64,000 nucleotides of DNA. It comes from Xanthobacter autotrophicus Py2. GTDB lineage: Bacteria > Pseudomonadota > Alphaproteobacteria > Rhizobiales > Xanthobacteraceae. How positions within the stretch are numbered: position 1 is the stretch's first letter; every line of letters starts with the position of its first letter. Both the position numbers and the translations under genes were made by a program. Below are positions 30,710 to 59,534 of the stretch, one piece after another. A model generated the notes under the pieces. The model had not been told where the DNA came from, did not search any database, and saw only the letters and a program-made list of their open reading frames with translations. The stretch lies in contig CP000781.1 of NCBI GenBank assembly GCA_000017645.1, positions 3,149,501 to 3,213,500 on the forward strand, given 5' to 3'.

Positions 30710-30786
30710 GCGCCGGTAGCTCAGCTGGATAGAGCACCAGACTACGAATCTGGGGGTCGGGAGTTCGAATCTTCCCCGGCGCGCCA
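30710..30786 (+). tRNA. tRNA-Arg (anticodon ACG)
   Basis: 77 bases with encoded CCA. The acceptor stem GCGCCGG / CCGGCGC pairs fully, the D arm has AGCTCAGC..GAGC, the anticodon stem is CCAGA / TCTGG around CTACGAA, and the T arm contains GTTCGAATC. The 3' half is the left boundary of the integrated element: the recombinase gene on the opposite strand ends inside it. Confidence 0.97.
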
Positions 30787-32439: not shown

Positions 32440-32957
32440 GGCTCCACCAATCGCTGGATTGCGTGCATCGGTAGGACCAGCCGGAGGGAGTCCGGCAGCC
32501 GCACGAAGCCGTTTCCCTCATAGAAGGCGGCGGCGCGCTCACTGATAGCATCCACCACCAGCATCGAGGAACCGACTGTGGCCGCGCTCGCATAGGCGCG
32601 CCGCACGGCGTCGGCGAGAAGCATCGCACCCAGGCGTTCGCCCTGCCGCGATTCGGAGACCGCCAGCCGTCCGACCAGCGTGGCGCTGACCAGTGGATAG
32701 CGCGGGATGTGCTTGCGGGTGGCGGCCGGCACGTCGCCCTGCGCCACGCTGGTCGCGCATAGCGTATAATAGCCCAGCACGACGTCCGGCTTGTCAGGCT
32801 CGACCAGAATGAAGACCCCATTCGCCTTGCGCCGCACATCCTGGCTTGCCTGCGTCCGGAGATAACGGTCGAGGCTGTCGACGCCGCAGGCAAAGCCGTC
32901 CCGCTCGTGATGCGACGCGAGCGCCTCGATCTTCAAATCTGGCCGAGACGCCGCCAT
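32436..32957 (-). CDS. GNAT acetyltransferase toxin (TacT/AtaT type)
   Basis: 173 residues with the GNAT fold: LGYYTLCATSVA strand, VGRLAVSESRQGERLGAMLLADAV (acetyl-CoA loop), and AAAFYEGNGFVRLPDSLRLVLPM at the C-terminus, which is the typical ending of toxins that acetylate aminoacyl-tRNA. The partner DUF1778 antitoxin gene lies 2 bases upstream. The stop codon overlaps the recombinase start, so toxin and recombinase are translationally coupled. Confidence 0.93.
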   Translation of the reverse strand: MAASRPDLKIEALASHHERDGFACGVDSLDRYLRTQASQDVRRKANGVFILVEPDKPDVVLGYYTLCATSVAQGDVPAATRKHIPRYPLVSATLVGRLAVSESRQGERLGAMLLADAVRRAYASAATVGSSMLVVDAISERAAAFYEGNGFVRLPDSLRLVLPMHAIQRLVEP

Positions 32958-32959
32958 GT

Positions 32960-33265
32960 TCAGGAAGCGACCCGGCGCTTGTGCTCGGCCAGGGCGCGGA
33001 CCAGCCGCTCGCTCGGCTCAGGCGGATTGACCAGCGCGTCGAAGAATGCCGCGCGGTCGTGATCGGACAACACCAACGTCTCATGCTCGGCGATCGTCCG
33101 GCGTGCGGTGTCGGTGAGCGCAGTCACGCAAAAGTCGCTGACCTTGCGCCGCGAGAGGTGGGCGGCCCGCTCGATAAGATCCTTCGTTTCTTCATCCAGC
33201 CGGAATCCGAGGCGTTCGACGCGGTTGGGCGTTTCCCGTTCGATCTTGGGCTGTTTGCGCGGCAT
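32960..33265 (-). CDS. DUF1778 ribbon-helix-helix antitoxin (TacA type)
   Basis: 101 residues from the ATG at 33265, chosen because AGGAG lies 8 bases upstream (an in-frame ATG at 33283 lacks this). Residues about 15-65 form the DUF1778 ribbon-helix-helix (ERLGFRLDEETKDLIERAA, KVSDFCVTALTDTAR); the C-terminal part (LSDHDRAAFFDALVNPPEPSERL) wraps the toxin in known pairs. The complex normally represses its own promoter, which here would also control the recombinase. Confidence 0.93.
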   Translation of the reverse strand: MPRKQPKIERETPNRVERLGFRLDEETKDLIERAAHLSRRKVSDFCVTALTDTARRTIAEHETLVLSDHDRAAFFDALVNPPEPSERLVRALAEHKRRVAS

Positions 33266-33344
33266 TGGGGTCACTCCTGACATGGTCTACGTTTCCTCAA
33301 CAATGTACGTCATATAGACGAACAAATCAACTTCCAAATTCCCA

Positions 33345-40943: not shown

Positions 40944-41091
40944 GCGCCTCCCAACTTAACCTGCTCGCGGAAGCGGAAGTCCAGCCGGATTTCCGCTCCC
41001 GTTTTCGCTCAATTTCGGCTATGCTCAGGTCGCGCCATGGTGGTGGTGGAAGGCACGACCGTCAGACATTTTCTCACGGGAGCCCATTACC

Positions 41092-41532
41092 ATGATCTTC
41101 ATCGGCATTCTCGCCAGCATCGCAGCCATTGGCATGCTCTGCTGGCTCTTGTTCACCCTTGCCGTATTCGCACTGCCCGCCTTCGCCGGCGTCACCACTG
41201 GAGTTTGGGCCTATCAGACCGGCGCGGGCTGGATCGGCGGCATCGTCGTCGGCCTGGTCGCCGCCGCACTGACGTTCGGCATCGGCCAGTTCCTGCTCGC
41301 CTTCGTGCGGCCGCTCTGGCTGCGCCTCGCGATCGCGATCGTGTTCGTCGCGCCCGCAGCGCTCGCCGGCTATCACGCCACCCATGGCATCGTGAAGCAC
41401 ACGATGCCTTCCGACACGTGGCAGATCGTCTTTTCCGTCATCGGCGCAATTGCCGTCGGCGTCACAGCATTCGTGCGCGTGGCGGCGATGGCAGCGCCCG
41501 GACCGTCCGGGCGGGGCTTGGCACGCGCCTGA
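41092..41532 (+). CDS. Small membrane protein
   Basis: 146 residues with four or five predicted helices (IFIGILASIAAIGMLCWLLF, WIGGIVVGLVAAALTFGIGQ, LAIAIVFVAPAALAGYHA, IVFSVIGAIAVGVTAFV). No family recognised, although similar proteins are, in my experience, common on rhizobial ICEs. The start at 41092 has ACGGGAG about 10 bases upstream. Possibly an immunity or envelope protein; no evidence. Confidence 0.7.
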   Translation: MIFIGILASIAAIGMLCWLLFTLAVFALPAFAGVTTGVWAYQTGAGWIGGIVVGLVAAALTFGIGQFLLAFVRPLWLRLAIAIVFVAPAALAGYHATHGIVKHTMPSDTWQIVFSVIGAIAVGVTAFVRVAAMAAPGPSGRGLARA

Positions 41533-41927
41533 CGCCATCAGCAGCAGAGGCAGAACCAACTAATGATCTCCCCAGCGCCGCCCTCGTCATCGAAGCCATG
41601 GGAATGGCGGTTAGCGCCACTCGGACCTTAGTCTCGGTCAACCCGTGTCGCGTCATCGCAGTTTCACGCTGGAGCAGTGAGGCGTCGTTCGGTCACACGA
41701 TCGAAACATCGGTGTGCGAGCTTTCATACCAGAGCAGTGTCTGCGTCGAGATGCGGTCAGGCCCGGAACGGTCGCGTGGAATCGCCAACCGCGTTGACGC
41801 CGGGACCGCGACGGCAGCGCGCTCGCCACGTTCTCCTCAATCCATCTCTGTCTAACCGACCGCTCCAAAACGGCCTCTTCAATGGGCTGATCTGGCCGAA
41901 GGCCGGCTGCGCCTCGATCGCCTATGC
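41533..41927. other. Gene-free stretch before leader element A copy 2
   Basis: About 395 bases in which I see no supported gene. The open frames read as Ser/Arg-rich shadow-type sequence without domains. Confidence 0.5.
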
Positions 41928-42118
41928 GGCAATGGCGCCGAGCGACTTTCTTCCCCTGCCGGCTGCGCCGTCATCCTCGCGAAACAACAAAGTCGCCTGG
42001 CTGCCATCCTCCGCTGCGCTGCGGTCGCAAGCGATGCCGCGTCGATCGCCTTCGGCCCGCCGATCGCCATCGAGGCCGCAATGGTGCGGGCTCGGAACAG
42101 AGTTCAAGGAGAACTATC
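41928..42118 (+). promoter_or_regulatory. Leader element A, copy 2 (upstream of DUF736 gene)
   Basis: Shares with 39823-40016 the blocks GGCAATGGC (41928-41936), GCGAAACAACAAA, and CCATCCTCCGCTG (42004-42016). Block spacing is 76 against 75 bases, and the distance from the last block to the ATG is 115 against 119. The intervening sequence is different, so block order and spacing are what is conserved. Confidence 0.6.
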
Positions 42119-42445
42119 ATGGCGACCATCGGCACCTTCAAGAAGACCGGCAACAACGAATTTGTCGGCGACATCGTCACCCTCTCGGTCCAGGCCAGGA
42201 ACGTCCGCATCGTCCCGGAGAACGGCCGCTCAGCCGAGAACGCTCCCAGCCACCGCGTCTTCGTCGGCCGCGCCGAGATCGGCGCCGCCTGGTCCAAGCG
42301 CTCGAACGAAGGCCGCGACTATCTGAGCCTCAAGCTCGACGATCCGAGCTTCACCGCCCCGATCTTCGCCAACCTCTTCGACGACGAGGACGGCGAGGGC
42401 TACAGCCTCATCTGGTCCCGCCCCAGCCGTAGGAACGCGGATTGA
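42119..42445 (+). CDS. DUF736 protein, copy 1
   Basis: 108 residues covering the whole DUF736 domain (MATIGTFKKTGNNEFVGDI, NAPSHRVFVGRAEIGAAW, DYLSLKLDDPSFTAPIFANL, YSLIWSRPSRR). DUF736 proteins are small and found almost only on alphaproteobacterial plasmids and ICEs; function unknown. A paralogue lies at 47091-47426. Shine-Dalgarno AAGGAG upstream. Preceded by leader element A. Confidence 0.9.
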   Translation: MATIGTFKKTGNNEFVGDIVTLSVQARNVRIVPENGRSAENAPSHRVFVGRAEIGAAWSKRSNEGRDYLSLKLDDPSFTAPIFANLFDDEDGEGYSLIWSRPSRRNAD

Positions 42446-42603
42446 CCGCCCGGCTCAGGATGCCCCGCCCGATCCTCGGGCGGGGCAAGCCCTTCAAGGC
42501 TCGTCGATCCGGCTTTGCGCATTGTCGGCATTGCGCGTCGGCGGTTTGGTAGTCTCTCGGTTTGAATTACGCGCCACCGCCCTTTTGCGGATAGTGTCGT
42601 CCA

Positions 42604-42948
42604 ATGAACGGCAAGCTGAAAGACTGGGCACGCACGATCAAGCGAGACGTGCATGCGATTTATCTCGCTGCTCGCGATCCTCGCACCCCCTGGTACGCGA
42701 AAGCGCTGGCGCTATGCGTTGCTGGATACGCTCTGTCGCCAATAGATCTGATTCCAGACTTCATTCCAGTGCTGGGGTATCTCGACGACGCGATAATTGT
42801 GCCGCTCGGCATTCTGGCTGTGATCAAAATGATCCCGCCAGAAGTTTTGGCAGAGCACCGCGCCGCCGCCGCTCTTGCCGGAGTGCGCCCGGTGAGTGGA
42901 ACCGCCGCCGTAGTAATAGTTGCGTCTGGGTCGCATCCGTTGGACTGA
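42604..42948 (+). CDS. YkvA-family (DUF1232) membrane protein, C-terminus probably frameshifted
   Basis: 114 residues. The DUF1232 core is clear: WYAKALALCVAGYALSPIDLIPDFIP and LGYLDDAIIVPLGILAVIKMIP. After VIV (about 42919) the frame ends in an unlikely polar tail (ASGSHPLD), whereas the next frame reads CVWVASVGLTAWLGYRYFTG to a stop at 42983, which fits the family's usual C-terminal helix. One base therefore seems to be missing near 42920, by mutation or sequencing error. Function of the family unknown. Confidence 0.8.
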   Translation: MNGKLKDWARTIKRDVHAIYLAARDPRTPWYAKALALCVAGYALSPIDLIPDFIPVLGYLDDAIIVPLGILAVIKMIPPEVLAEHRAAAALAGVRPVSGTAAVVIVASGSHPLD

Positions 42949-43082
42949 CGGCATGGCTCGGCTATCGCTATTTCACCGGCTGAATTTCAAACTGAGGCAC
43001 TACCGGCGGTTTTGACGGATTTGCACGTTTCCGCTTATCCGGCAGTGCGGATCGGGCAAGTCGGGCCGCGACTCGCTGAGAC

Positions 43083-43310
43083 TCACGTCTCAGCTTCCTC
43101 TACCGCCTCATCGAGAAGGTCGGCGGGTCTCACGCCCAACGCTTCCGACAAATGCCACATCGTCAACAGCGTGACATTCTGCTGGCCCCGCTCCATGCCG
43201 CTCACATAGGCGCGGTCCACACCCATTTTCACGGCGACCGCTTCCTGACTCAGACCGGCCGCGACGCGATACCTCCTGACGTTGGCTCCAAAAATTCTGC
43301 GAATGTCCAT
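43083..43310 (-). CDS. XRE-family repressor, QseC-like
   Basis: 75 residues, a single Cro/C1-type helix-turn-helix: RRYRVAAGLSQEAVAVKMGV then RAYVSGMERGQQNVTLLTMWHLSEALGV. The C-terminus is short and acidic. It is divergent from a DUF2285 gene, the same layout as qseC-qseM on ICEMlSymR7A, where QseC represses both genes. A near-palindromic double promoter lies just upstream. The start is the ATG at 43310; a TTG at 43328 is also in frame. Confidence 0.82.
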   Translation of the reverse strand: MDIRRIFGANVRRYRVAAGLSQEAVAVKMGVDRAYVSGMERGQQNVTLLTMWHLSEALGVRPADLLDEAVEEAET

Positions 43311-43332
43311 CCGCAGGATAGGAGACAATCGA

Positions 43333-43359
43333 GTATTATATCGCTACGTGTTATAATAC
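43333..43359. promoter_or_regulatory. Inverted repeat with two divergent -10 boxes
   Basis: GTATTATA-N11-TATAATAC. The left arm gives TATAAT on the minus strand (towards the XRE gene) and the right arm gives TATAAT on the plus strand (towards the DUF2285 gene). It is a natural operator for the XRE protein to control both directions. Confidence 0.65.
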
Positions 43360-43484
43360 ACGGCCGCGAAGCCTCCTCGCGATGCCGCCACTGGGCTGGC
43401 GCGATGCGTGAAAAGCATCGGGAAATTTCAGCTATCGGTCTGGTTTGCATTGGCGATGCGGATACGATCGATTAACCAAAGAAG

Positions 43485-43760
43485 ATGGACGCGCCGATGA
43501 CCGTCATTGCTTTCCAGGACCGTCCGCCCGACGGCGACCGCCTGACGGGTTACGACGAAAGCCATCTTGCTCTCTATATTCGGCTCCTCGATGCCGCCGC
43601 CGAAGGCGCCGACTGGCGTGAGGCGGTGCAAATCCTTTTCGCGCTCGATCCGGACCGCGATCCCGACCGCGCCCGAATAGTTCATGACAGCCATCTCGCC
43701 CGCGCCCGCTGGATGACCACCACCGGCTATCGCGAGCTCCTCCGTCCCCGCGTGTCTTAA
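43485..43760 (+). CDS. DUF2285 protein, QseM-like antiactivator
   Basis: 91 residues (or 87 from the ATG at 43497). Residues about 25-88 fit DUF2285: HLALYIRLLDAAAEGADWREAVQIL, then ARIVHDSHLARARWMTTTGYRELL. On ICEMlSymR7A the small DUF2285 protein QseM blocks the activators TraR and FseA. Here the gene sits between a divergent QseC-like gene and a split FseA-like gene, which supports the same job. No TraR or TraI is visible in the window. Confidence 0.78.
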   Translation: MDAPMTVIAFQDRPPDGDRLTGYDESHLALYIRLLDAAAEGADWREAVQILFALDPDRDPDRARIVHDSHLARARWMTTTGYRELLRPRVS

Positions 43761-43887
43761 AGCAGGACACTCCTCCCGGTTGTGCGAGGCATCACGCCGC
43801 GCAGTTTTGGGGACTTCCGCCGCGCCTCGTCGGCGGCGAGGCTTGGGCGTGGAGGGGGCCACTCAAAACGCGGACGAGGAGACGCGT

Positions 43888-44671
43888 ATGGCCGAGCCGC
43901 CGGATTGGCGATTGCAGACAACCGAACGCGCGCTGAACCGCTTGGAGCGGCAAGGGTTTGCGTGGGAGTTCCTGCGCCGGAATCCCGACTATCGCAGCGA
44001 CTATGACCGTCTGCGCAGCACGCCGGCCAGCCGGTCAAGCGCTTCATTGCCCCATAGGAGCGCCGCCGCCCCACAGTGGGGGCTGCGATTTCCTGCTCGA
44101 CCCCGATCGCTCCGCTAACGAGACCGCGATCTTCTGGCGGCCCGAGGTTGTCGCCAGCGTTCTGATGCTTGAAGCCGCGCCGGCCGTCTTTCGCATGGCC
44201 CGGCGGCTCGAACAACTCGACCTGACCCACGCCACATTGCACGCGCAGCCCGGAGGCGAAGGTGCGATCGTAATAGCCGATCCCGACGGTGATCATTATT
44301 TGGTCGCCGGAGCCATCGACCCGGCTCAGCCGCTCGCCATCCTGCTACCGCTCGACGACAACTTCCACATCCGCACCGAAGCGGCATTGCGATTCCAACG
44401 CCGCCTATTTGGACGTGCCGCCGGTCCGCTACCGCGCGCGCTCACGCTCACACCGCGCCACCGCTTGCGGCTGGTGCGCATGGTGCGCGCGCTCGATGGC
44501 CGATCCGCGGGCGCGACTTATCGCGAAATCGCCGGAGTGCTTTTCGACACGCCCCGGCAGTCCGCTGCCGAGTGGAAGACGTCGTCCATCCGCGCCCAGA
44601 CGATCCGCTTGGTGAAGGATGCGCAGACGATGATGCACGGCGGCTATCTCCGTTTGCTCGCCGGCCGCTGA
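43888..44671 (+). CDS. FseA-like activator (DUF6499-DUF2285), split by a +1 frameshift
   Basis: Two overlapping frames. The first (from ATG 43888) encodes a DUF6499-like start (PPDWRLQTTERALNRLERQ, FAWEFLRRNPDYRSDYDRL) and ends at the TAA at 44116-44118. The second, one base ahead, continues as LLDPDRSANETAIFWRPE and ends at 44671 with a DUF2285 domain (LTLTPRHRLRLVRMVRALDGRS, SIRAQTIRLVKDAQTMMHGGYLRLL). Shifting +1 at TTTC (44089-44092) gives one 260-residue protein (QWGLRF-LLDPDRS). On ICEMlSymR7A msi172 and msi171 are joined in exactly this way by programmed +1 frameshifting to make FseA, which activates rdfS. The excisionase gene is next here as well. Sequencing error or decay is the alternative. 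Confidence 0.82.
44089..44092 (+). other. Candidate +1 slip site in the FseA-like gene
   Basis: In frame the codons read CGA TTT CCT. A tRNA-Phe on TTT can move one base to TTC, which it pairs with better, and reading continues CTG CTC GAC CCC. The zero frame stops 24 bases later. Confidence 0.6.
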
Positions 44672-44821
44672 CCCCGCCTCGGCTCCCCTCAAGCGTGACC
44701 GTAAGGGGGTATGCGCACGCAGGGGCCTCACTTCGTCATCCACCCTGACGCCGATGGTTCGCCACCGTGGTCGCCGCTTCGCCACCGCACGCTGGAGGCG
44801 CAGCCGAAGCCCGGAGGCCCC

Positions 44822-45115
44822 ATGCCAGCAGCGCGACTCGACCCCCCGCCACGCTATCTCCGCACCCCTGAGGCTGCGCGCTTCCTCGGCCTGTCAGGTC
44901 GCACGCTCGAGAAGCATCGCACCTATGGCACCGGACCAGTCTATCGCAAGCTGGGCGGCCGCATTGTCTATGCCCTCGACGATCTTCAGGCCTGGGCGGA
45001 TCGTGGCACGCGGCTTTCCACATCTGATCCGGGACATGACGTTGTCCATCCCGCCAAGCCGCACGCAAGGCTTGGCCATGGGAATGCCGCCCGTCGCGGT
45101 GGCGGTGCGTCATGA
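44822..45115 (+). CDS. RdfS-like excisionase (helix-turn-helix)
   Basis: 97 residues from the ATG at 44822; homology starts with PPPRYLRTPEAARFLGLSGRTLEKHR, a MerR/AlpA-type winged helix, followed by GPVYRKLGGRIVYALDDLQAWAD. Recombination directionality factors of this type tilt the integrase towards excision. On rhizobial ICEs rdfS lies upstream of parA and traF, as here, and is switched on by FseA. The C-terminal 30 residues are polar and variable. It overlaps parA by 4 bases. Confidence 0.85.
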   Translation: MPAARLDPPPRYLRTPEAARFLGLSGRTLEKHRTYGTGPVYRKLGGRIVYALDDLQAWADRGTRLSTSDPGHDVVHPAKPHARLGHGNAARRGGGAS

Positions 45116-45750
45116 TCGTCGCGCTCCTCAACCAGAAGGGCGGCGTCGGCAAGACGACGCTCGCGCTCCATCTCGCCGGCGAATGGGCCAGCAGGGGGAG
45201 GCGCGTCCTACTCATTGACGCGGACCCACAGGGCTCCGCGCTCGATTGGTCGCAGCAGCGCGCGCGCGAAGGTTTACCGCGCCTGTTTGGTGTTGTCGGT
45301 CTAGCGCGAGATACGCTTCACAACGAAGCGCCGGAACTGGCGCGAGGCGCCGATCATGTGGTGATCGACGGGCCACCGCGCGTTGCCGGCCTGATGCGAT
45401 CAGCACTGCTTGCCGCCGACCTGGTGCTGATCCCGGTGCAGCCATCGCCCTTCGATGGCTGGGCCTCGGCGGAGATGCTGTCGCTGCTTGGCGAGGCGCG
45501 CATCTATCGTCCGCAGGTCGTGGCTCGTTTCGTGCTGAACCGATGCGGCGCGCGCACCATCATCGCCCGCGAGACGGCCGAGACGCTCGCCGACCATGAT
45601 CCGCCGGTGCTCGCGTCCACCATCGGCCAGCGCGTCGCCTTCGCCGACACAGCGCGGTCTGGACGCCTCGTCTCGGAGATCAACGAGCACGGCCCGGCAG
45701 CGCGCGAGATCACCGCGCTCTGCGCCGAGATCGGGAGGATCGCGCCATGA
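45112..45750 (+). CDS. parA: ParA-family ATPase
   Basis: 212 residues, a short ParA/Soj-type partition ATPase with the deviant Walker A KGGVGKTTLALHL, the VLLIDADPQGSALDW switch and DHVVIDGPPR (Walker B). It probably maintains the excised circular form or positions the element for transfer. The start overlaps the excisionase gene and its end overlaps the next gene by 4 bases, so all are one transcription unit. Confidence 0.93.
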   Translation: MIVALLNQKGGVGKTTLALHLAGEWASRGRRVLLIDADPQGSALDWSQQRAREGLPRLFGVVGLARDTLHNEAPELARGADHVVIDGPPRVAGLMRSALLAADLVLIPVQPSPFDGWASAEMLSLLGEARIYRPQVVARFVLNRCGARTIIARETAETLADHDPPVLASTIGQRVAFADTARSGRLVSEINEHGPAAREITALCAEIGRIAP

Positions 45751-45998
45751 CCGGGCGATCCCAGAAACGCGGCTTCACTGCACGTCCTGTCGATCCTGAG
45801 AGCTGGGTCAAAGCCTCCGATCCGCGACCCGCTCGGAACGGCGACGCCGCGTTCACGGCACGGCTCACGATCGATGTGACGCCCGACATGCGCGGCCAGA
45901 TCAAGATCGCCGCGTTCCAGCGCGGCGTCACCGTCGCCGACATGCTGCGCGAACTGCTCGCCCGCGAATTTCCTCCAGCCGAAGGAGACACGCAATGA
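45747..45998 (+). CDS. Small putative ribbon-helix-helix protein
   Basis: 83 residues. The C-terminal half (FTARLTIDVTPDMRGQIKIAAFQRGVTVADMLRELL) looks like a ribbon-helix-helix DNA-binding fold, and its place after parA suggests a ParG-like centromere-binding partner. The N-terminal 35 residues are basic and disordered. Overlaps both neighbours by 4 bases. Confidence 0.75.
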   Translation: MTGRSQKRGFTARPVDPESWVKASDPRPARNGDAAFTARLTIDVTPDMRGQIKIAAFQRGVTVADMLRELLAREFPPAEGDTQ

Positions 45999-46504
45999 AC
46001 GGCGCTGGTCATTTGCGCGGCGTGCCGGCGGCGCTCCTCTTCGACGGTCTGACTCGCGTCGAACTGACCTGGATCGAGAAGAGGGTCGAATACTGGATTC
46101 GGTTCGGCCAGGACGTCCAGGAACAGATTCTCGACCGACGCCGGCGCGTGCTCAGCTTCCCGCCCCACAGTGTCTTCGCCTTTGTCCGTTGGGCGGCAAA
46201 CGACTTCGGCACGATCATCTCGCGCATCGACATCGTGCGCGCGATCTCGCCCGGCGAGCACTACCAGACTCTGCCCTTCGTGCGTCCTGGTGGCGACATC
46301 CTGCTGAGGATGGACGGCTGGCCAAAGGTCGAGCGCGTACTGCAGATCGTCGACGCCATCGAGTCGGTCGGCATCAATCCGGCTGAGGTCTCACCGCATC
46401 ATTGGCGGCATGTTCATAATCGTCTCGCTGCCGGCCAGGAACCGCGCAGCTACACGGCGGAGCAGCATCGGGCCATCCTTCTGCGCCGGAAGGTCGAGCC
46501 ATGA
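45995..46504 (+). CDS. DUF2840 protein
   Basis: 169 residues. The sequence (TRVELTWIEKRVEYWIRFGQDVQEQ, FVRWAANDFGTIISRIDIVRA, HWRHVHNRLAAGQ) fits DUF2840, a family tied to alphaproteobacterial conjugative elements between parA and traF. Function unknown. Translationally coupled to both neighbours by 4-base overlaps. Confidence 0.85.
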   Translation: MNGAGHLRGVPAALLFDGLTRVELTWIEKRVEYWIRFGQDVQEQILDRRRRVLSFPPHSVFAFVRWAANDFGTIISRIDIVRAISPGEHYQTLPFVRPGGDILLRMDGWPKVERVLQIVDAIESVGINPAEVSPHHWRHVHNRLAAGQEPRSYTAEQHRAILLRRKVEP

Positions 46505-47046
46505 CCCGCTTCGGCTACGTCATGACGACGTACTTCACCGTGATCTTGATCGGTGGCCTGTCCTTCATCCACATCACGCCCAGGCTGATCTGGAACGCGT
46601 CCGCCAGCACGCCGGTCGGCCTCTATTCAATCGATCGGTCGCCGCAGCTCGAAGTGACCGACCTGGTCGCCGTAAACGCACCCGAGCCGCTCGCATCGTT
46701 CCTCGCTGAGCGCGGCTATCTGCCTCGCGGCGTCCCGCTCCTGAAACGCGTTGCGGGTCTATCGGGGCAACAAGTCTGCCGCACCGGCGCACACGTCACC
46801 GTAGACGGCATCCCGGTCGGCGACGCGCTGCCGCGCGACCGTCTCGGCCGCCATCTCCCCGTTTGGCAGGGCTGCCGCCGCATCGCCGCCGACGAGATCT
46901 TCCTCATGAACTGGTCCGTGGAGGACAGCCTGGACGGTCGCTACTTCGGTCCAGTTTCCCGCGGCTCGGTCATCGGACGAGCAACCCCTCTCTACACCGA
47001 CGAAGACGGCAACGGCCGCTTCGAATGGCGCGCCGCGACGCGGTGA
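46501..47046 (+). CDS. traF: Conjugative transfer signal peptidase TraF (S26 family)
   Basis: 181 residues. N-terminal membrane helix (TVILIGGLSFIHITPRLIW), catalytic Ser in ASTPVGLYSI and general-base Lys in LLKRVAGL, then VPVGDALPRD and a C-terminal GxxYFGPV. TraF peptidases process the TrbC pilin into its cyclic mature form in RP4, and trbC is present downstream. Confidence 0.93.
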   Translation: MTRFGYVMTTYFTVILIGGLSFIHITPRLIWNASASTPVGLYSIDRSPQLEVTDLVAVNAPEPLASFLAERGYLPRGVPLLKRVAGLSGQQVCRTGAHVTVDGIPVGDALPRDRLGRHLPVWQGCRRIAADEIFLMNWSVEDSLDGRYFGPVSRGSVIGRATPLYTDEDGNGRFEWRAATR

Positions 47047-47090
47047 AGACGCGCCCATTCCCATTTCACCGCACCACACAGGAGGCTTCC

Positions 47091-47426
47091 ATGCCGCAGA
47101 TCGGAGAGTTCACGCGCACCAAGACCGGCTATGCCGGCCGCATCCGAACGGTCGCTCTCGACATCGAGATGGTGCTCGTCCCCGCCGAGCATTCCGACAC
47201 CGAGAACGCGCCGGACTATCGCATTCACCTTCGCGACGACGGCGGTCCGGAGATCGGCGCCGGATGGAGGCGAACCGGCGAGAAGGCCGGCGACTACGTT
47301 TCCTTGCAGATCGACGACCCGTCACTCCGCCAACCGATCCGCGCCAACCTGTTCCAGTCCGGCGACGACAAGTCCGCCTGGGGCCTGCACTGGAACCGTC
47401 CGCCGAAGCGCAATGAGCGGGACTGA
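47091..47426 (+). CDS. DUF736 protein, copy 2
   Basis: 111 residues, full DUF736 domain (MPQIGEFTRTKTGYAGRI, NAPDYRIHLRDDGGPEIGAGW, DYVSLQIDDPSLRQPIRANLF, WGLHWNRPPKR). Diverged from copy 1 at 42119. Shine-Dalgarno AGGAGG with 6-base spacing. It lacks leader element A. Overlaps the next gene's start. Confidence 0.9.
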   Translation: MPQIGEFTRTKTGYAGRIRTVALDIEMVLVPAEHSDTENAPDYRIHLRDDGGPEIGAGWRRTGEKAGDYVSLQIDDPSLRQPIRANLFQSGDDKSAWGLHWNRPPKRNERD

Positions 47427-48207
47427 CGGCATGCCGACGCGCCGCCCATCGCGCAGGCAACCGGTGGAGACCGGGCGGACACGCGCCGCCCGGCATCTCT
47501 CCGTCCTTCTCCTTTCCGGCCTGCTGATCGTCAGCGGATCACCGGCCACCGCGCTGGCGCAGAACGCGACGACCTCGCGCGCAAGCCCAGCCGATCCGTT
47601 CGCCGTCTTCATCGCCGAGGCTTCGCAACGCTTCGGCATTCCGGAGCGCTGGATTCGCGCCGTCATGCGTGCCGAAAGCGCGGGCGACGTGCGCGCGATC
47701 TCATCCGCGGGCGCAATGGGTCTGATGCAGATCATGCCCCATACATGGACGGAGCTTCGCACACGCCACCGACTGGGGCGCGATCCTTACAGTCCGCGCG
47801 ACAACATCCTCGCGGGCGCGGCCTACCTGCGCGAGATGTATGATCGCTATGGTTCGCCAGGCTTCCTGGCCGCCTACAATGCGGGGCCGGGACGCTACGA
47901 GGAGTATCTCGCCGGTCGCCCGCTCCCGGCCGAGACCCGCGCCTACGTCGCCGCGCTGGTCCCTTTATTCGGCGGCGGTGATCTCCCCAGTCCAGTCGCC
48001 GTCGCCGTCGCCGATCCGCCACAGGCTTGGACCCGCGCCCCGCTGTTCGTCGCGCGTATCGAGCGCATCTCGGCTGCCGATCCAGCGCAAACCCCGCACC
48101 ATCCGGACGACGCTCCTGCGACACCTCCCGTGCGCGAGGTTTCCGCGATCATGCCGCAGTCCTCCGGCCTGTTCGTCGCGCGGCCTGATGGTCGAGGGCC
48201 GCAATGA
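47413..48207 (+). CDS. Lytic transglycosylase (conjugation-associated)
   Basis: 264 residues (258 from the ATG at 47431). Signal-anchor near 30-48 (HLSVLLLSGLLIVSGSPATALAQ), then an SLT domain with catalytic Glu in VMRAESAGDVRAISSAGAMGLMQIMP and the AGAAYLREMYDRYGSPGFLAAYNAGPGRYEEYLAG repeat region. VirB1/TrbN-like enzymes open the peptidoglycan for the type IV secretion channel. The C-terminal 80 residues are Pro/Ala-rich. A short hairpin lies at the stop codon and an IS110-type insertion follows. Confidence 0.92.
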   Translation: MSGTDGMPTRRPSRRQPVETGRTRAARHLSVLLLSGLLIVSGSPATALAQNATTSRASPADPFAVFIAEASQRFGIPERWIRAVMRAESAGDVRAISSAGAMGLMQIMPHTWTELRTRHRLGRDPYSPRDNILAGAAYLREMYDRYGSPGFLAAYNAGPGRYEEYLAGRPLPAETRAYVAALVPLFGGGDLPSPVAVAVADPPQAWTRAPLFVARIERISAADPAQTPHHPDDAPATPPVREVSAIMPQSSGLFVARPDGRGPQ

Positions 48208-48231
48208 CCGCGCTCACTCGAGATCGCGGTC
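48206..48231. terminator. Hairpin at the end of the lytic transglycosylase gene
   Basis: GACCGCG-N12-CGCGGTC overlaps the stop codon. It could be a terminator, or it could belong to the end of the IS110-type element, since no T-run follows. Confidence 0.4.
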
Positions 48232-48397
48232 TGGCGTACTCCGGCGCATCATGGCGTGCGTGGAAGGGGGAGCGAGGCAACACGACCGCACGATTGCCGC
48301 CCGTAATCGGCAGGACGGTTCCCCGCCGAAGAGCGCGCCACCAACAGCTTCGCCGCCCGGTAAAATCTCCCGCGTTACGCAACGCAGGAGGCGGGTG

Positions 48398-49486
48398 ATG
48401 GACTTCTTTTGCGGGCTGGACGTGGCCATCGAGGAGACGGCGGTGTGCGTCGTCGATGATCGCGGTGAAGTACATCTGACGGTGAAGGTGGCGACCGAGC
48501 CGGAGGCGTTGCTGGCGGTGCTGAAGCCCTTCGTTGGGCGATTGAAGCGTGTCGGCCACGAGGCCGGCTCGCTGTCGCCCTGGCTCCATCCCGAGCTCAA
48601 GAAGCTCGGCCTGCCGGCGATCTGCCTGGAGACGCAGCATGTGCGGGCCGCGATGTCGGCCCAGCGCAACAAGACCGACGCAGCGGACGCCCTCGGGATC
48701 GCCCACATCATGCGCACAGGCTGGTTCCGCCAGGCGCACGTGAAGACGGAAAGCTGCTACCGGATGCGCCTGCTGCTGACGCATCGACGCAACCTGAAGC
48801 GCAAGTTCCTCGATCTCGAGAACGCCATCCGCCACTCGCTGAAGAGCTTCGGGATCAAGCTCGGTGGCACCTCGCGCGGCAAGTTCGACCAGGCGGTGCG
48901 GGAGGCGGTGGCCGACGATCCGCTGTCCTGCGAGCTCATGGACGCCATGCTGTCGGCGCGCGCCGCGCTGTGGAAGGAGTATTGCCGGCTGCACGATCTC
49001 GTCGTGAAGCTGGTGGCGCAAAGCGAGCTGTGCCGGCGCTTCATGGCGATCCCAGGCGTCGGGCCGGTGACGGCGCTCAGCTTCATGACGGCGATCGACG
49101 ACCCGTCCCGCTTCCGCCGCTCGCGCGACGTTGCCGCCTATTTCGGGCTGACGTCCAGGCGATGGCAGTCGGGCACATCGATCGACGTGCAGGGGCGTAT
49201 CTCAAAGGCTGGGGACTCTGATGTGCGCCGCGCGCTCTACGAGGCGGCATCGGGACTGCTGACCCGCTTCAAGGGCAAGGACAAGGTGAAGGCCTGGGGC
49301 CAGGAGATCGCCAAGCGCTCCTGCCATCGCAAGGCGTGCGTCGCCGTGGCCCGCAAACTGGCCGTCATCATGCACGCCATGTGGAGCGACGGCACCTTCT
49401 ATCTCGGCGATCCGGCAGCGAGCACTGCCGACGCCGCGCAGCGGGCGCACACCAAGGATCGCAAGCTCCTGGGAGCCCACCGATGA
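48398..49486 (+). CDS. IS110-family transposase
   Basis: 362 residues. N-terminal RuvC-like DEDD domain (FFCGLDVAIEETAVCVVDD, HEAGSLSPWL, KTDAADALGIAHI). Coiled middle part (about 105-200). C-terminal Transposase_20 domain with MAIPGVGPVTALSFMTAI, AAYFGLTSRRWQSG and the serine-containing GRISKAGDSDVRRALYEAA. IS110 recombinases work with a structured bridge RNA made from the element's non-coding end. Shine-Dalgarno AGGAGG 8 bases before the ATG at 48398; the frame continues upstream into the neighbouring gene only by chance. Confidence 0.95.
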   Translation: MDFFCGLDVAIEETAVCVVDDRGEVHLTVKVATEPEALLAVLKPFVGRLKRVGHEAGSLSPWLHPELKKLGLPAICLETQHVRAAMSAQRNKTDAADALGIAHIMRTGWFRQAHVKTESCYRMRLLLTHRRNLKRKFLDLENAIRHSLKSFGIKLGGTSRGKFDQAVREAVADDPLSCELMDAMLSARAALWKEYCRLHDLVVKLVAQSELCRRFMAIPGVGPVTALSFMTAIDDPSRFRRSRDVAAYFGLTSRRWQSGTSIDVQGRISKAGDSDVRRALYEAASGLLTRFKGKDKVKAWGQEIAKRSCHRKACVAVARKLAVIMHAMWSDGTFYLGDPAASTADAAQRAHTKDRKLLGAHR

Positions 49487-49895: not shown

Positions 49896-50041
49896 AGGGG
49901 CGCGATGTGCGCCTCGGTTCGGTTGTGCTTTTTCAAGGGCTTATGCAGCAAATTCGCGAGGTGCGCCTGTCTGGCGCAGTCTGCGGCTTCAGCGATTTCA
50001 TAAGCAAATCAGCGCCATCGCGCGATGTGCAGGCGCGCGAC
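49896..50041. other. Candidate origin of transfer (oriT) upstream of the relaxase gene
   Basis: Immediately upstream of the relaxase gene lie two small inverted repeats, GGCGC-N5-GCGCC (49899-49913) and TGCGCC-N5-GGCGCA (49962-49978), within three related blocks (CGCGATGTGCGCCT, CGCGAGGTGCGCCT, CGCGATGTGCAGG at 50021). Relaxase targets are usually short hairpins next to the relaxase gene. The nick site cannot be read from sequence. Confidence 0.45.
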
Positions 50042-50042
50042 C

Positions 50043-51788
50043 ATGACCGACGAGAACGATTTCCGAATCCGGCCAGGCCGCATCCGCTCGACGCGCGTGC
50101 AGCGCGCCAGACCCTTCATCGCCCAGGCGCTCGCCGCCGCCCAGCGGGCCGGCGGATCGGTTTCCCGCAAGGGGACGATCGGGCCGGGCCACCGCTCCCG
50201 GTTCGGCCGCGGTCAGCGCGCATCAGTGCAGGCCAACCGGCTCATCACCTCCCGCTCGCGCGGCGCCGTCGTCAAGGCGCGCGTCGTCCGTCACGCCGGA
50301 CGCGGCGCGCCGCTCGCCACCCATCTCAACTATCTGCGCCGCGAGGGCGTCACCCGGGACGGAGAGAAGGCGAGGCTGTTCGGCCCTGGTACGGACCATG
50401 CCGATCCGAAGGCGTTCGCGCAGCGATGCGAGGACGACCGGCATCATTTCCGGTTCATCGTCTCGCCGGACGACGCCGTGGAGATGTCGGACCTCAAGAC
50501 CTTCGCCCGCGATTTGGTCGGCCAGATGGAGAAGGACCTCGGCACCAAGCTCGAATGGGTCGCCGTCGATCACTGGAACACCGAGCATCCGCACGTCCAC
50601 CTGATTGTGCGTGGCGTGCGCGAGGACGGCGAGAACCTCGTCATCTCCCGCGACTATATCAAGGAAGGCATGCGCGATCGGGCGCGGGATCTGATCACGC
50701 GGGAGTTGGGTCCGCGCACGGATCACGAAATCCGTCGCACCCTGGAACGTCAGATCGACGCCGAACGCTGGACCAACCTCGATCGCCAGCTCACGCGCGA
50801 TGGCTGTCGCACCGGCGTCATCGACCTTGCGCCGCATCCCAACCGGCAGCCCGACGAATTCCACGCCCTCAAGGTCGGACGCCTGCGCAAGCTCGAATCG
50901 CTTGGGCTTGCCGACCAGGTTGGCCCCGGCCAGTGGATTGTGTCCGAGAATGCCGAGACGACTCTGCGCGAGCTGGGCGAACGCGGCGACATCATCAAGC
51001 GAATCCATCGCGGCCTTTCGGAACGCGGCATCGAGCGCGGCACGGCCAGCTACGTGCTGGCAGGCGAAAGCCTGGACGATTCTGTCGTCGGCCGTCTGGT
51101 GGCTCGCGGCCTCGACGACGAGCTGAAGGGCACCGCCTATGCCGTGGTCGACGGCGCGGACGGACGGACCCATCATATCAAGCTGCCCGATCTCGACGCC
51201 GCCGGGGACGGCGCGCCGGGCTCGATCGTCGAGCTGCGCAAGTTCGACGATGCCCAGGGCCGGCGCCGCGTCGCCCTGGCGGTCCGCTCGGACCTCTCGA
51301 TCGAACGGCAGATCACCGCAGCCGGCGCCACCTGGCTTGACCGGCAAGCTATCGCCCGTGAACCGATCGCACTCGGCGGCGGCGTCGGCGGCTTTGGCGC
51401 AGAGGTGCGCGAGGCGCTGGACCGGCGCGCCGAGCACCTGATCGCGCAAGGTCTGGCGGAGCGTCAGAGCCGTGGCGTCAGCTTCAGCCGCGACCTGATC
51501 GAGACGCTGCGCCGGCGCGAGCTGGACGCGCTCGCCGATAAGCTGTCGGCGGAAAGCGGGCGGCCGCTGACGCGTGCTTCGACGGGTGAGTATGTCGCCG
51601 GCACCTACAGGCAGCGCTTCGCGCTCGCCTCCGGCCGCTTCGCGATGATCGATGACGGCCTCGGCTTCCAGCTCGTTCCCTGGTCTCCATCACTCGAAAA
51701 GCAGCTCGGCCGTCATGTCTCCGGTCTCGCGCGAAGCGATGGCGGCATCGACTGGAGCTTCGGCCGCAAGCGGGGGCTCGGCCTGTGA
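50043..51788 (+). CDS. Conjugative relaxase, DUF3363 type (RlxS-like)
   Basis: 581 residues from the ATG at 50043 (alternative ATG at 50025). Mobilisation nuclease that nicks oriT and leads the strand into the recipient. After a basic N-terminus come THLNYLRREGV and the HUH motif region VAVDHWNTEHPHVHLIVRGV (about 172-191), then a long C-terminal DUF3363 region to the end. It carries the candidate oriT in front and traG behind (31-base gap). Confidence 0.93.
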   Translation: MTDENDFRIRPGRIRSTRVQRARPFIAQALAAAQRAGGSVSRKGTIGPGHRSRFGRGQRASVQANRLITSRSRGAVVKARVVRHAGRGAPLATHLNYLRREGVTRDGEKARLFGPGTDHADPKAFAQRCEDDRHHFRFIVSPDDAVEMSDLKTFARDLVGQMEKDLGTKLEWVAVDHWNTEHPHVHLIVRGVREDGENLVISRDYIKEGMRDRARDLITRELGPRTDHEIRRTLERQIDAERWTNLDRQLTRDGCRTGVIDLAPHPNRQPDEFHALKVGRLRKLESLGLADQVGPGQWIVSENAETTLRELGERGDIIKRIHRGLSERGIERGTASYVLAGESLDDSVVGRLVARGLDDELKGTAYAVVDGADGRTHHIKLPDLDAAGDGAPGSIVELRKFDDAQGRRRVALAVRSDLSIERQITAAGATWLDRQAIAREPIALGGGVGGFGAEVREALDRRAEHLIAQGLAERQSRGVSFSRDLIETLRRRELDALADKLSAESGRPLTRASTGEYVAGTYRQRFALASGRFAMIDDGLGFQLVPWSPSLEKQLGRHVSGLARSDGGIDWSFGRKRGLGL

Positions 51789-51819
51789 TCACCGCTCCTC
51801 ATCAAGAAAGGACACCGCC

Positions 51820-53808
51820 ATGTCGGCCACGAAGATTCTCTGGGGACAGATTCTCGCCGTCTTCGTGATCGTGCTGACCACGACCTGGACCGCGACCCAG
51901 TGGACGGCATGGCAGCTAGGCTTCCAGCCGCAACTCGGCCGGCCATGGTTCGAGGCATTTGGCTGGCCAGTCTACCATCCGCCGGCCTTCTTCTGGTGGT
52001 GGTACTTCTACGACGCCTATGCGCCTTCGGTTTTCGTCGAGGGCGCCTACATCGCCGCATCCGGCGGCTTCATTGCCATCGCGGTCGCCATCGGCATGTC
52101 AGTGTGGCGAGCCCGCGAGGCCAAAAATGTCGAAACCTATGGTTCGGCGCGCTGGGCGCGAGCCGACGAGGTGCGCGCCGCCGGCCTGCTTGGGCCCGAT
52201 GGCGTGGTGCTCGGCAGGTTCGATCGCGCCTATCTTCGCCATGACGGGCCAGAGCATGTGCTGTGCTTCGCGCCGACCCGCTCCGGCAAGGGCGTCGGCC
52301 TGGTCGTGCCCTCGCTGCTGACCTGGCCGGGCTCCGCCATCGTTCACGACATCAAGGGCGAGAACTGGCAGCTCACTTCCGGCTTCCGCGCCCAACATGG
52401 CCGCGTGCTGCTGTTCGATCCCACGAATGCGAAGTCGTCCGCTTACAACCCGCTGCTCGAAGTCCGCCGCGGCGAATGGGAGGTCCGCGACGTCCAGAAC
52501 ATCGCCGACATCCTGGTCGATCCCGAAGGGAGTTTGGAACGCCGCAATCATTGGGAGAAGACGTCCCACGCACTCCTCGTCGGCGCTATCCTGCACGTTC
52601 TCTACGCTGAGACCGACAAGACACTCGCAGGCGTCGCCGCCTTCCTCTCCGACCCCAAGCGGCCGATCGAGTCGACGCTCGCCGCCATGATGAAGACGGC
52701 GCATCTCGGCGAAGCTGGACCGCACCCGGTCATCGCATCGGCCGCGCGCGAGCTGCTGAATAAGTCCGACAATGAGCGGTCGGGCGTCTTGTCGACCGCG
52801 ATGTCGTTTCTCGGACTCTATCGCGATCCCGTGGTGGCGGATGTTACGCGCCGTTGCGACTGGCGCATCACAGACATTGTTGGCGGAGCGCGACCGTCGA
52901 CGCTCTACCTCGTCGTGCCGCCATCTGACATCGCGCGCACCAAGCCGCTGATCCGGCTTATCCTCAATCAGATCGGACGCCGACTGACGGAGGATCTCAA
53001 CGCCAAAGGCAGGCGGCACCGGCTGCTGCTCATGCTCGACGAGTTTCCCGCACTCGGGCGCCTCGACTTCTTCGAGAGCGCCTTGGCGTTCATGGCGGGC
53101 TATGGGCTGAAGAGCTTCCTGATCGCCCAGTCGCTCAATCAGATTGAGAAAGCGTATGGTCCGAACAACTCGATCCTCGACAACTGCCATGTGCGCGTGA
53201 GCTTCGCGACCAATGACGAGCGCACGGCCAAACGCGTCTCCGACGCCCTCGGCACCGCGACCGAGATGCGGGCAATGCGAAACTACGCGGGGCACAGGCT
53301 GAGCCCATGGCTCGGCCATCTGATGGTTTCGCGATCGGAGACGGCGCGCCCACTGCTGACGCCGGGTGAGGTGATGCAGCTCCCGCCCGCCGACGAGATC
53401 GTGATGGTGGCCGGTACGCCGCCGATACGCGCGAAGAAAGCCCGCTATTTCGAGGATCGCCGGTTTCAGGAACGCGTCCTGCCACCACCCGCGCTCGCGA
53501 GGCCAGCCGCGGGAAAGCCGGACGATTGGAGCGCCCTGCCATTGCCGTCGCGGCCGCAACCCGATGCAGCCGCGCAGCAGGACGGCACCGGCGATGACGA
53601 CTCGACCGGCTCCGAACGGCGTCAGCAACCGGAGCTGACCGCGGTAAAGCCTGTCGAGAGGAAGGCGCCGATCGACAACGAGTTCGAGCTCGATGGTCCC
53701 GACGACGCCGATGACGACGACGCCGCGCGCGCAGGCCGGCTGAATCAGGTGATGCAGGGCGTCGCGCGGCAGGTCTCGCTCGATCCCAGTGACGGGATGG
53801 ACCTCTGA
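51820..53808 (+). CDS. traG: TraG/VirD4-family coupling protein
   Basis: 662 residues. Hexameric ATPase that links relaxosome to the type IV secretion channel. Two N-terminal membrane helices (about 8-28 and 70-92), Walker A in FAPTRSGKGVGLVV (about 150) and Walker B in LLLMLDEFPALGRLDF (about 405). The C-terminal tail (from about 570) is acidic and Pro-rich. The start is ATG 51820 with GAAAGGA upstream. RHH gene follows 2 bases later. Confidence 0.95.
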   Translation: MSATKILWGQILAVFVIVLTTTWTATQWTAWQLGFQPQLGRPWFEAFGWPVYHPPAFFWWWYFYDAYAPSVFVEGAYIAASGGFIAIAVAIGMSVWRAREAKNVETYGSARWARADEVRAAGLLGPDGVVLGRFDRAYLRHDGPEHVLCFAPTRSGKGVGLVVPSLLTWPGSAIVHDIKGENWQLTSGFRAQHGRVLLFDPTNAKSSAYNPLLEVRRGEWEVRDVQNIADILVDPEGSLERRNHWEKTSHALLVGAILHVLYAETDKTLAGVAAFLSDPKRPIESTLAAMMKTAHLGEAGPHPVIASAARELLNKSDNERSGVLSTAMSFLGLYRDPVVADVTRRCDWRITDIVGGARPSTLYLVVPPSDIARTKPLIRLILNQIGRRLTEDLNAKGRRHRLLLMLDEFPALGRLDFFESALAFMAGYGLKSFLIAQSLNQIEKAYGPNNSILDNCHVRVSFATNDERTAKRVSDALGTATEMRAMRNYAGHRLSPWLGHLMVSRSETARPLLTPGEVMQLPPADEIVMVAGTPPIRAKKARYFEDRRFQERVLPPPALARPAAGKPDDWSALPLPSRPQPDAAAQQDGTGDDDSTGSERRQQPELTAVKPVERKAPIDNEFELDGPDDADDDDAARAGRLNQVMQGVARQVSLDPSDGMDL

Positions 53809-53810
53809 GC

Positions 53811-54251
53811 GTGGTGAACATGAAGATTCCGAAGAAGCAGCGCCTCTCGGTCTATCTCGATCCGGATATCACGAAAGCGCTCGCCGCTTATGCCGCGCGT
53901 CGCGATCAATCGCGATCCCTGGTCGCGGAAGCGGCCATCGCATCCTTCCTATCGCCCGACGCCGCCGAGCGCCAAGAGGCCGCGACCACCAAGCGATTGG
54001 ACCAGCTCGACCGGCGCATGACGCGCATGGAACGCGACCTTGGCATTTCCGTGGAAATGCTCGCAGTGTTCGTCCGCTTCTGGCTCACCACCAACCCGCC
54101 ACTTCCGGAGCCAGCCCAGGCGGCCGCACGCGCACAGGCCGGCGAGCGGTACGACGCCTTCGTCGCCGCACTCGGGCGGCGACTCGCGAAGGGACCGAAA
54201 GTGCGTGAGGAGATTTCGGACGACGTAGTAGGTGTCCCGGGCGCGGAATAA
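53811..54251 (+). CDS. CopG/RHH-family conjugation regulator
   Basis: 146 residues from GTG 53811 (GTG 53814 or ATG 53820 also possible). N-terminal ribbon-helix-helix (KKQRLSVYLDPDITKALAAYAARRDQS) then a coiled stretch (TTKRLDQLDRRMTRMERDLG). This gene regularly lies between traG and trbB in rhizobial ICEs and may control the trb operon. There is a 169-base gap before trbB in which I see no gene. Confidence 0.86.
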   Translation: MVNMKIPKKQRLSVYLDPDITKALAAYAARRDQSRSLVAEAAIASFLSPDAAERQEAATTKRLDQLDRRMTRMERDLGISVEMLAVFVRFWLTTNPPLPEPAQAAARAQAGERYDAFVAALGRRLAKGPKVREEISDDVVGVPGAE

Positions 54252-54420
54252 TCATCGCGCCGGGCATCGCAAGAGTTTGTCAGTTCCGCCGTCGCCCTCT
54301 CTTTGTACGCCAGAGCACTACGACCCCGTTCTGCTTGTTGTCATGCCCTGATTTCTGCCTCTTCTACTCATCCCCGATCCAGGGCCGCTTGTTTGCGGTC
54401 CCGCGCAGAACGGGGACGAC

Positions 54421-55404
54421 ATGGCGGTTTCTCACCAGCAATCAGAGGCGATCCTTCGAGGCGCGCGCATGTTGCGCACGGCCCTCGGCCCCGCCATCGC
54501 CGGATTCCTGGAAGACCCGTCGATCGTCGAGGTGATGCTCAATCCCGATGGGCGGCTCTGGATCGACCGGCTGTCCGAGGGACTCTCCGATACCGGAGCG
54601 CGCCTGTCGCCCGCGGACGGCGAGCGCATCGTCCGCCTGGTCGCGCATCATGTCGGCGCCGAGGTTCATTCCGGTTCACCGCGCGTTTCGGCCGAGTTGC
54701 CCGAGACGGGGGAGCGCTTCGAAGGCCTTCTGCCGCCCGTCGTCGCCGCGCCGGCATTCGCGATCCGCAAACCTGCCGTCGCCGTCTTCACGCTCGCTGA
54801 CTATGTCGCCGCCGAGATCATGTCCGCCGAACAGGCGGAGGTGCTCCGCCGCGCCGTCGCGGACCGCCGCAACATCCTCGTCGCCGGCGGCACCTCGACC
54901 GGCAAGACCACGCTCACCAACGCCTTGCTCGCCGAGGTATCGAAGACCTTCGACCGCGTGGTTCTGATCGAGGACACGCGCGAGCTGCAATGCGCCGCGC
55001 CCAACCTCGTAGCCATGCGCACCAAGGATGGCGTCGCATCGCTGTCCGATCTCGTCCGCTCCTCGCTTCGCTTGCGCCCTGATCGCATTCCGATCGGAGA
55101 GGTGCGCGGCGCCGAGGCGCTGGATTTGCTCAAGGCCTGGGGGACGGGCCACCCGGGCGGCATCGGCACGATCCACGCCGGCACCGCGCTCGGCGCGCTG
55201 CGCCGCCTTGAGCAACTCATTCAGGAAGCCGTCGTCACCGTCCCGCGCGCGCTGATCGCCGAGACCATCGATCTCGTCGCGGTGCTCAGCGGTCGCGGCT
55301 CGACCCGTCGCCTCGCCGAACTCGCCCGCGTCGAAGGCCTACAGCCGGACGGCGACTACCGCGTCATCCCCGCAACCCAGCCCGCCCCAGGAGAACCCGA
55401 ATGA
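54421..55404 (+). CDS. trbB: Conjugal transfer ATPase TrbB (VirB11-like)
   Basis: 327 residues. Cytoplasmic hexameric ATPase of the type IV secretion system. Walker [18 protein letters not shown] (about 156), Asp box [10 protein letters not shown], and the His box [12 protein letters not shown]. First gene of a tightly packed run trbB-C-D-E-J-K-L-F-G-I, overlapping trbC by 4 bases. Confidence 0.97.
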
Positions 55405-55733
55405 TCCGCCATGCCCTGCGCGCTCGCCGTCATATCGCGACGGCCGCGTCCGTCGCCGTCTTCAGCATGATGCTTGCGCCAGCAGCCCATGCTTCCGGCT
55501 CTTCGATGCCGTGGGAAGCGCCGCTGCAATCGATCCTCGAATCCATCGAGGGGCCTGTGGCCAAGATCATCGCTGTGATGATCATCATCATCACAGGGCT
55601 AACGCTAGCCTTCGGCGATACGTCAGGCGGCGCGCGGAAGCTGATCCAGATCGTCTTCGGCCTGTCGATCGCCTTCGCCGCGTCGAGCTTCTTCCTGTCC
55701 TTCTTCTCCTTCGGCGGCGGAGCGCTCGTCTGA
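55401..55733 (+). CDS. trbC: Conjugal transfer pilin TrbC (VirB2-like)
   Basis: 110 residues: long signal sequence to about residue 33 (LAPAAHA-S), then two hydrophobic helices (VAKIIAVMIIIITGLTLAFG and IVFGLSIAFAASSFFLSFF). In RP4 the protein is cleaved and made cyclic by TraF, which is also present (46501). Overlaps trbD by 1 base. Confidence 0.94.
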   Translation: MIRHALRARRHIATAASVAVFSMMLAPAAHASGSSMPWEAPLQSILESIEGPVAKIIAVMIIIITGLTLAFGDTSGGARKLIQIVFGLSIAFAASSFFLSFFSFGGGALV

Positions 55734-56014: not shown

Positions 56015-56021
56015 GGCCCCG

Positions 56022-59218: not shown

Positions 59219-59240
59219 GGCCCCCCAAGAGGATCGTGTC

Positions 59241-59531: not shown

Positions 59532-59534
59532 ACC

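Follow-up and report, generated by a model that had tools for sequence, protein, structure and literature searches.

The gene examined here is broken into two reading frames, which raises the question of whether it is a damaged gene or one whose break is part of its expression. It lies in a window of 64,000 nt from Xanthobacter autotrophicus Py2 (CP000781.1, positions 3,149,501 to 3,213,500, forward strand), the whole stretch of DNA analyzed, to which all coordinates below refer. The frame-0 open reading frame (ORF) (43888 to 44118, + strand) encodes an N-terminal DUF6499 domain with an AWEFLRRN motif (PF20109, Trans_reg_dom, E value of 4.6e-20); it starts with the ATG at 43888, reads as far as QWGLRF, and then continues for eight out-of-frame codons to the TAA at 44116 to 44118. 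The +1-frame ORF (44090 to 44671, + strand, stop codon at 44669 to 44671) encodes the middle part of FseA and the C-terminal DUF2285 DNA-binding domain (PF10074, RovC_DNA-bd, E value of 9.8e-38). The two Pfam families are taken here to be DUF6499 and DUF2285, respectively. The junction on the + strand comprises the internal Shine-Dalgarno-like UGGGGG (44077 to 44082), which forms the Trp and Gly codons and is separated from the slip codon by 6 bases, followed by the Leu codon CTG (44083 to 44085), the codon CGA (44086 to 44088), and the UUU C slip site (TTTC, 44089 to 44092). A shift of tRNA-Phe from UUU to UUC at this site would join LLDPDR onto QWGLRF and yield a product of 260 residues (68 + 192); FseA of R7A extends to residue 266 (PMC10359603).

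The combination of an N-terminal DUF6499 with AWEFLRRN, a C-terminal DUF2285, and a +1 site after WGL with UGGGGG assigns the gene to the FseA family. The first-pass annotation had described a two-frame FseA-like gene with a TTTC slip site, and its coordinates prove exact, with the Pfam matches agreeing in both frames. Compared on its own against the PDB, the +1 part matches neither FseA nor RovC, only EccCb1 (E value of 0.018). The reading favored here, with a probability of roughly 0.93, is that the locus is the fseA gene of an integrative conjugative element (ICE), in which a +1 slip gives FseA, FseA activates an RdfS-like gene, and a QseM-like protein acts as the off-switch. The observed part of this model consists of the frames, domains, and homologies, the conservation of the slip site, and the synonymous-site bias.

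All six fseA-like places found in the Py2 genome show the same-codon break and TTTC. For a wider comparison, PF20109 was searched in draws, overlapping in part, that came from the phylum (43/398 genomes matching), the class (25/385), and the order (86/397); a repeated phylum draw gave 42/398, the same matching genomes minus the window's own, and 1 new locus. The 210 loci collected consist of the listed PF20109 places plus, for the DUF2285 part, 12 of its close relatives. Profiles built for this analysis gave 208 DUF6499 hits, from which 10 without a DUF2285 partner and 10 exact repeats (9 of the +1 type and 1 fused) were excluded. The remaining 188 different loci with both domains paired comprise 147 with a +1 offset, 40 fused, and 1 with an offset of 2, although the ratio of 147:40 is no census because the window's order is overrepresented in the draw. 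The junction consists of TTT plus a pyrimidine in 143 of the 147 +1 loci (TTTC in 133 and TTTT in 10), located four codons (137 loci) or five codons (6 loci) past a conserved W/F residue, and the +1 frame is open into the C-terminal domain in 142/143. The alignment of the junction with other DUF6499-DUF2285 genes, called for in the first-pass annotation, thus comes out in favor of a conserved site. TTTY is absent from the expected place in 4/147 +1 loci (L033, L076, L186, and L125); these and L025, the locus with the offset of 2, may be decayed copies, misplaced sites, or other solutions. In L195, L065, L196, L198, L194, and L190, one extra codon separates WG from TTT, and UGGGGG is found in 0/6. 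Five plasmid hits, all outside the locus counts, were also examined; WGL-x-F at TTTC is present in 3/5, and the Bradyrhizobium plasmid hits L220 and L223 contain TTTC, but the 50 codons preceding it include a stop and lack a DUF6499 motif.

Transcriptional rather than ribosomal slippage on the T run, the most improbable of the alternatives, finds some room in the 4-T run of 14/143 loci and the 5 or 6 T of 4/143, but 125/143 have only 3 T, a run too short for it, and the GGG and CGA biases described below are at the codon level. Only marginally less improbable is the view, left standing in the first-pass annotation, that the break is a simple frameshift mutation, gene decay, or a sequencing error. 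The frame is indeed interrupted, and plasmid records annotate relatives in two pieces. An independent record from Hephaestia caeni DSM 25527 (L007), however, is identical to window positions 41090 to 47668 over 6579/6579 bases, which argues against the sequencing error raised with the original annotation. With the same-codon break in 6/6 genome copies, the +1 offset in 147/188 paired loci, and the +1 frame kept open as described above, a simple mutation as an isolated event is rejected.

Very unlikely as well, if a shade less so, is the production of two separate proteins with no slip, in which GGGGG would act as a ribosome-binding site and DUF2285 would be made by reinitiation. UGGGGG is Shine-Dalgarno-like and is termed ribosome-binding-site-like by Jowsey et al. 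(PMC10359603), and in 63/143 loci the +1 frame offers a possible start no more than 20 codons upstream of the slip, with no stop in between. Such an upstream start is absent in the other 80/143, however, and in a separate count, ATG, GTG, and TTG are absent within 25 codons after the slip in 61/143. The first starts are scattered, with no more than 14 at any single position. Reinitiation is also at odds with the retention of TTT plus a pyrimidine in nearly all +1 loci and with the fusion of both domains in 40 loci, and it is the fused form that acts as the activator in R7A (PMC10359603).

The contribution of the present analysis is a codon bias in the frameshift-type genes, UGG GGG UUR CGA UUU C. 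Codons were counted in the 143 +1 loci with TTTY and in the fused genes, 7/40 of which were dropped since no WG motif could be placed. In the +1-type genes, the Gly codon upstream of the slip is GGG in 104/141, compared to 266/2092 elsewhere in the same genes; the Leu codon is UUR in 91/132, compared to 537/3777; and among Arg codons directly before the slip, CGA accounts for 77/95, compared to 268/2604. UUU at the slip Phe (143/143, against 300/1142 elsewhere in the same genes) is required by the selection of the loci. The bias persists in 82 representatives of clusters at 65% identity (GGG in 60/81, UUR in 47/75, and CGA in 40/47). In fused genes, the same site shows GGG in 5/33 against 66/513 elsewhere, CGA in 0/12 against 19/319, and UUU in 4/9 Phe codons against 82/233. 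The slip of frameshift-type genes is thus enriched about six-fold in GGG and eight-fold in CGA, an excess that fused genes lack. UUR is a less specific part of the signal than CGA, and its frequency is elevated in fused genes as well (14/31 compared to 169/862 elsewhere); the window itself has the minority form CTG. The WxxL[RK]R motif, found in 129/143 loci, supplies a positional control: at its pair of conserved residues, CGA is used in only 6/129 and 12/129. CGA, which is read by inosine with weak pairing, is rare in the host, making up 3.2% of the Arg codons in a set of 13 window ORFs that includes 4 from the element.

Other signals around the slip are missing or variable. RNA folding at the slip in 83 +1-type rows shows no excess, with a mean z of -0.01 downstream and -0.11 upstream. 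The frame-0 stop lies 0 to 236 codons past the slip in the +1-type loci (median of 17), and therefore, no stop serves as a fixed pause. No dependence is detected between GGG and UUR (P = 0.096 for all loci and 0.12 for the representatives) or between GGG and CGA (P = 1.0 and 0.57), so frequency is the single basis for the proposal, taken up below, that the U of UUR extends the GGGGG pairing.

A quick tree of 105 rows requires 12 changes between the frameshift and fused states, compared to an average of 20.2 with shuffled labels, and its well-supported branches force at least 5, which means that the state has changed several times. In a paired test on the well-supported branches with five independent pairs, GGG differs in the same direction in 1.9 and against it in 0.2, and UUR in 2.2 and 1.5; for CGA, with three pairs, the values are 2.9 and 0. 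The codon contrast between frameshift and fused genes on the tree is thin, as at most five pairs put significance out of reach.

By analogy with the work on R7A, the majority of ribosomes would terminate at 44118 and release DUF6499 alone, while a minority would slip +1 at CGA-UUU-C, with tRNA-Phe re-pairing from UUU to UUC, to produce the 260-residue activator FseA. The occurrence and low rate of slippage at the window's fseA, like the activation and antiactivation discussed below, are predicted from that system. By analogy with prfB, pairing of GGGGG to the 16S rRNA tail may push the ribosome forward. The prfB gene of RF2 resembles fseA in its Shine-Dalgarno-like GGGGG upstream of a pyrimidine slip codon and in its forward slip of one base. 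The spacing differs, with three bases between GGGGG and CTTT in prfB (PMC12421855) and six between GGGGG and the slip codon in fseA, and fseA has neither a stop codon fixed in the A site nor autoregulation by a release factor. On this reading, fseA would use the Shine-Dalgarno geometry of prfB shifted upstream by one codon, and the pause would not depend on a stop codon. If this geometry is valid for fseA, CGA would occupy the P site and UUU the A site at the moment of the push, which would place the slip in translocation.

These features can be combined into a more far-reaching proposal, which is tentative and on balance unlikely: UGGGGG-UUR-CGA-UUU-C could be a distinct bacterial +1 element with a prfB-type push and a slip in translocation, common to thousands of FseA homologues on mobile elements. 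Here, GGGGG would lie three bases ahead of the codon in the P site, with the U of UUR extending its pairing. The P site would hold CGA, for which tRNA-Arg(ICG) is a weak reader, while tRNA-Phe sits on UUU, and the slip to UUC would happen during translocation. The pause would come from the weak sense codon CGA instead of from a stop codon. In prfB, the U of the E-site codon is able to pair with the 16S tail (PMC6321510).

Whether the slip takes place in translocation or in the P site, on UUU with CGA in the E site, is the alternative that survives best, and slippage in the P site has only slightly less than an even chance. The weak pairing of CGA with inosine favors it. For prfB, more +1 slippage is reported where E-site pairing is weak, although the authors' own mutagenesis, limited in extent, did not show this to be the main determinant of pathway choice (PMC6321510). 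With UUU in the P site, however, GGGGG would be six bases away, compared to three in prfB (PMC12421855), and cryo-EM of a CCC-A site shows the frame shift only with EF-G bound (PMC8324841). A UUU_C slip is also found in the UCC_UUU_CGU site of PA-X, which differs from fseA in being used on eukaryotic ribosomes and in having no Shine-Dalgarno element (PMC3498833); the next frame-0 codon after the slip is CGN in 51/143 +1-type loci.

The window holds part of an ICE adjoining a tRNA-Arg(acg) gene (30710 to 30786). A large serine recombinase (30742 to 32439, - strand; PF00239, PF07508, and PF13408) lies near the edge of the element, and its ORF ends inside the tRNA gene. This tRNA reads CGA, the codon favored before the slip, which is probably a coincidence. 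With up to two mismatches allowed, the only match to the tRNA 3' end is the tRNA itself, so no second copy marks the other end of the element, which was not located. Next to the recombinase is a GNAT acetyltransferase with a TacA1-like antitoxin (32436 to 33283), and a cation efflux gene also lies between it and the control block. On the other side of fseA, the + strand encodes a ParA-like protein, a small ORF, DUF2840, and an S26 peptidase that is TraF-like by position (45112 to 47046), as well as the DUF3363 relaxase, TraG, and the trb genes (T2SSE, TrbE, TrbL, VirB8, and TrbI; 50025 to 63794). An IS110-family transposase (47840 to 49486) lies between the peptidase gene and the relaxase.

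The distance from the serine recombinase to the start of DUF2285 is 11,654 bases in the window and identical in the Hephaestia record. The recombinase of that record matches the window's at 99%; together with the identity over 6579 bases, this may mean that the element was transferred very recently or that another genome has an almost identical one. In the genomes of the 12 relatives, near-copies (94 to 96%) lie 12 to 22 kb from fseA in L012, L013, and L018, on a contig whose sharing is deduced from the coordinates; L008 has no match, and the best match in the other seven reaches at most 69%. On contig 1, the tyrosine-integrase hits closest to the window's fseA are ∼180 kb away on its right side and nearly 700 kb away on its left.

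The control block is compact. A QseM-like antiactivator gene (43485 to 43760, + strand; start codon uncertain, 43485 or 43497) precedes fseA and encodes a lone DUF2285 without DUF6499, with similarity to QseM (PDB 7uqt, E value of 1.9e-21; PF10074, 1.9e-6). Divergent from it is an HTH_3 gene (43083 to 43328, - strand; PF01381, E value of 1.5e-14), which by its position would be QseC. An inverted repeat (CGAGTATTATA / TATAATACACG, 43330 to 43362) between the divergent genes, strongly conserved in 13 aligned relatives, is probably the operator/promoter of the switch. Between it and the QseM-like gene, the stretch from 43377 to 43485 contains a GATGCGTGAAAAGCATC hairpin and several CGATGC words and is largely conserved in the 13 relatives. 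Downstream of fseA follows a gene for an RdfS-like winged-HTH protein (44822 to 45115, + strand; PDB 8dgl RdfS, E value of 6.3e-10; HTH_17, 4.7e-8), with ATG 44822 as the likely start and GGAGG in front. RdfS has a tyrosine recombinase as its partner, whereas the recombinase here is the serine recombinase 11.7 kb from fseA, and hence the name "RdfS-like." The noncoding stretch before this gene (44700 to 44790; GGGGTACGCGCAC...TCATCCACCC...TTCGCCATCGTGGTCGC) is strongly conserved, above the level of the adjacent spacer, and is likely a promoter. A weak candidate FseA box, CAGGGG-16-ACCCTG (44720 to 44747), lies within it. Its hexamers are 16 apart as in the published box, and it is also present in L002; it ends 74 bases before ATG 44822, compared to a published arm at 62 to 67. 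It does not exceed chance, as the arms match at 5/6 and 4.7 such repeats occur per shuffled region.

Modeled on R7A, FseA would switch on the downstream RdfS-like gene and, through its product, excision and transfer. The QseM-like protein, under the divergent HTH gene, is predicted to bind DUF6499 and block FseA, keeping the system off in most cells. With ICEMlSym R7A, compared by features and not by alignment to the R7A sequence, the window shares an FseA (msi172-msi171 in R7A) with DUF6499 and DUF2285 in two frames, the +1 slip site, and the AWEFLRRN and WGL motifs, together with the QseM-like and RdfS-like partners and trb genes. In contrast to R7A, the HTH, QseM-like, fseA, and RdfS-like genes lie within 2.0 kb, a large serine recombinase replaces the tyrosine recombinase IntS, and no TraR-type domain is found on contig 1. 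A search for the LuxR/TraR autoinducer-binding domain (PF03472) gave none on contig 1, and both hits in the genome are on contig 2; the quorum-sensing input of R7A is therefore missing, replaced, or located off the element. The antiactivator-like gene before fseA and the excisionase gene after it, as first annotated, are supported by the matches to QseM and RdfS, but the claim that the whole control layout is kept holds for these neighbors and not for the TraR/LuxR-type activator.

The first-pass annotation also presented the locus as a second case of the system, a claim overtaken by the 4709 FseA homologues described by Jowsey et al. in 2023, ∼61% of which need the conserved +1 site (PMC10359603). 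Genes for fseA with this site are reported throughout alpha-, beta-, and gammaproteobacteria (PMC10359603). The further claim of a different recombinase type is right as to the serine recombinase near the element edge but not as to its novelty: among 41 Mesorhizobium genomes, serine integrases are described on one ICE and five IMEs, and the Mesorhizobium ICEs each have rdfS and fseA (PMC8627217). Both the slip and the recombinase type have therefore been published before (PMC10359603 and PMC8627217). For CGA and UUR in fseA, no mention was found in the available portions of the literature searched (PMC10359603, PMC8627217, PMC5882170, PMC11963761, PMC5009743, and PMC10885494); the primary paper of 2015, which lies outside this scope, may have them.

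The window's fseA falls squarely inside the homologue set of Jowsey et al., with nothing setting it apart, and is thus one more FseA in a known set. The element also lends itself to studying how a serine recombinase is served by an RdfS-like protein. The GGG and CGA bias turns the previously noted UGGGGG into separate, testable elements, and if CGA is functional, fseA would be a model for +1 frameshifting that does not need a stop codon.
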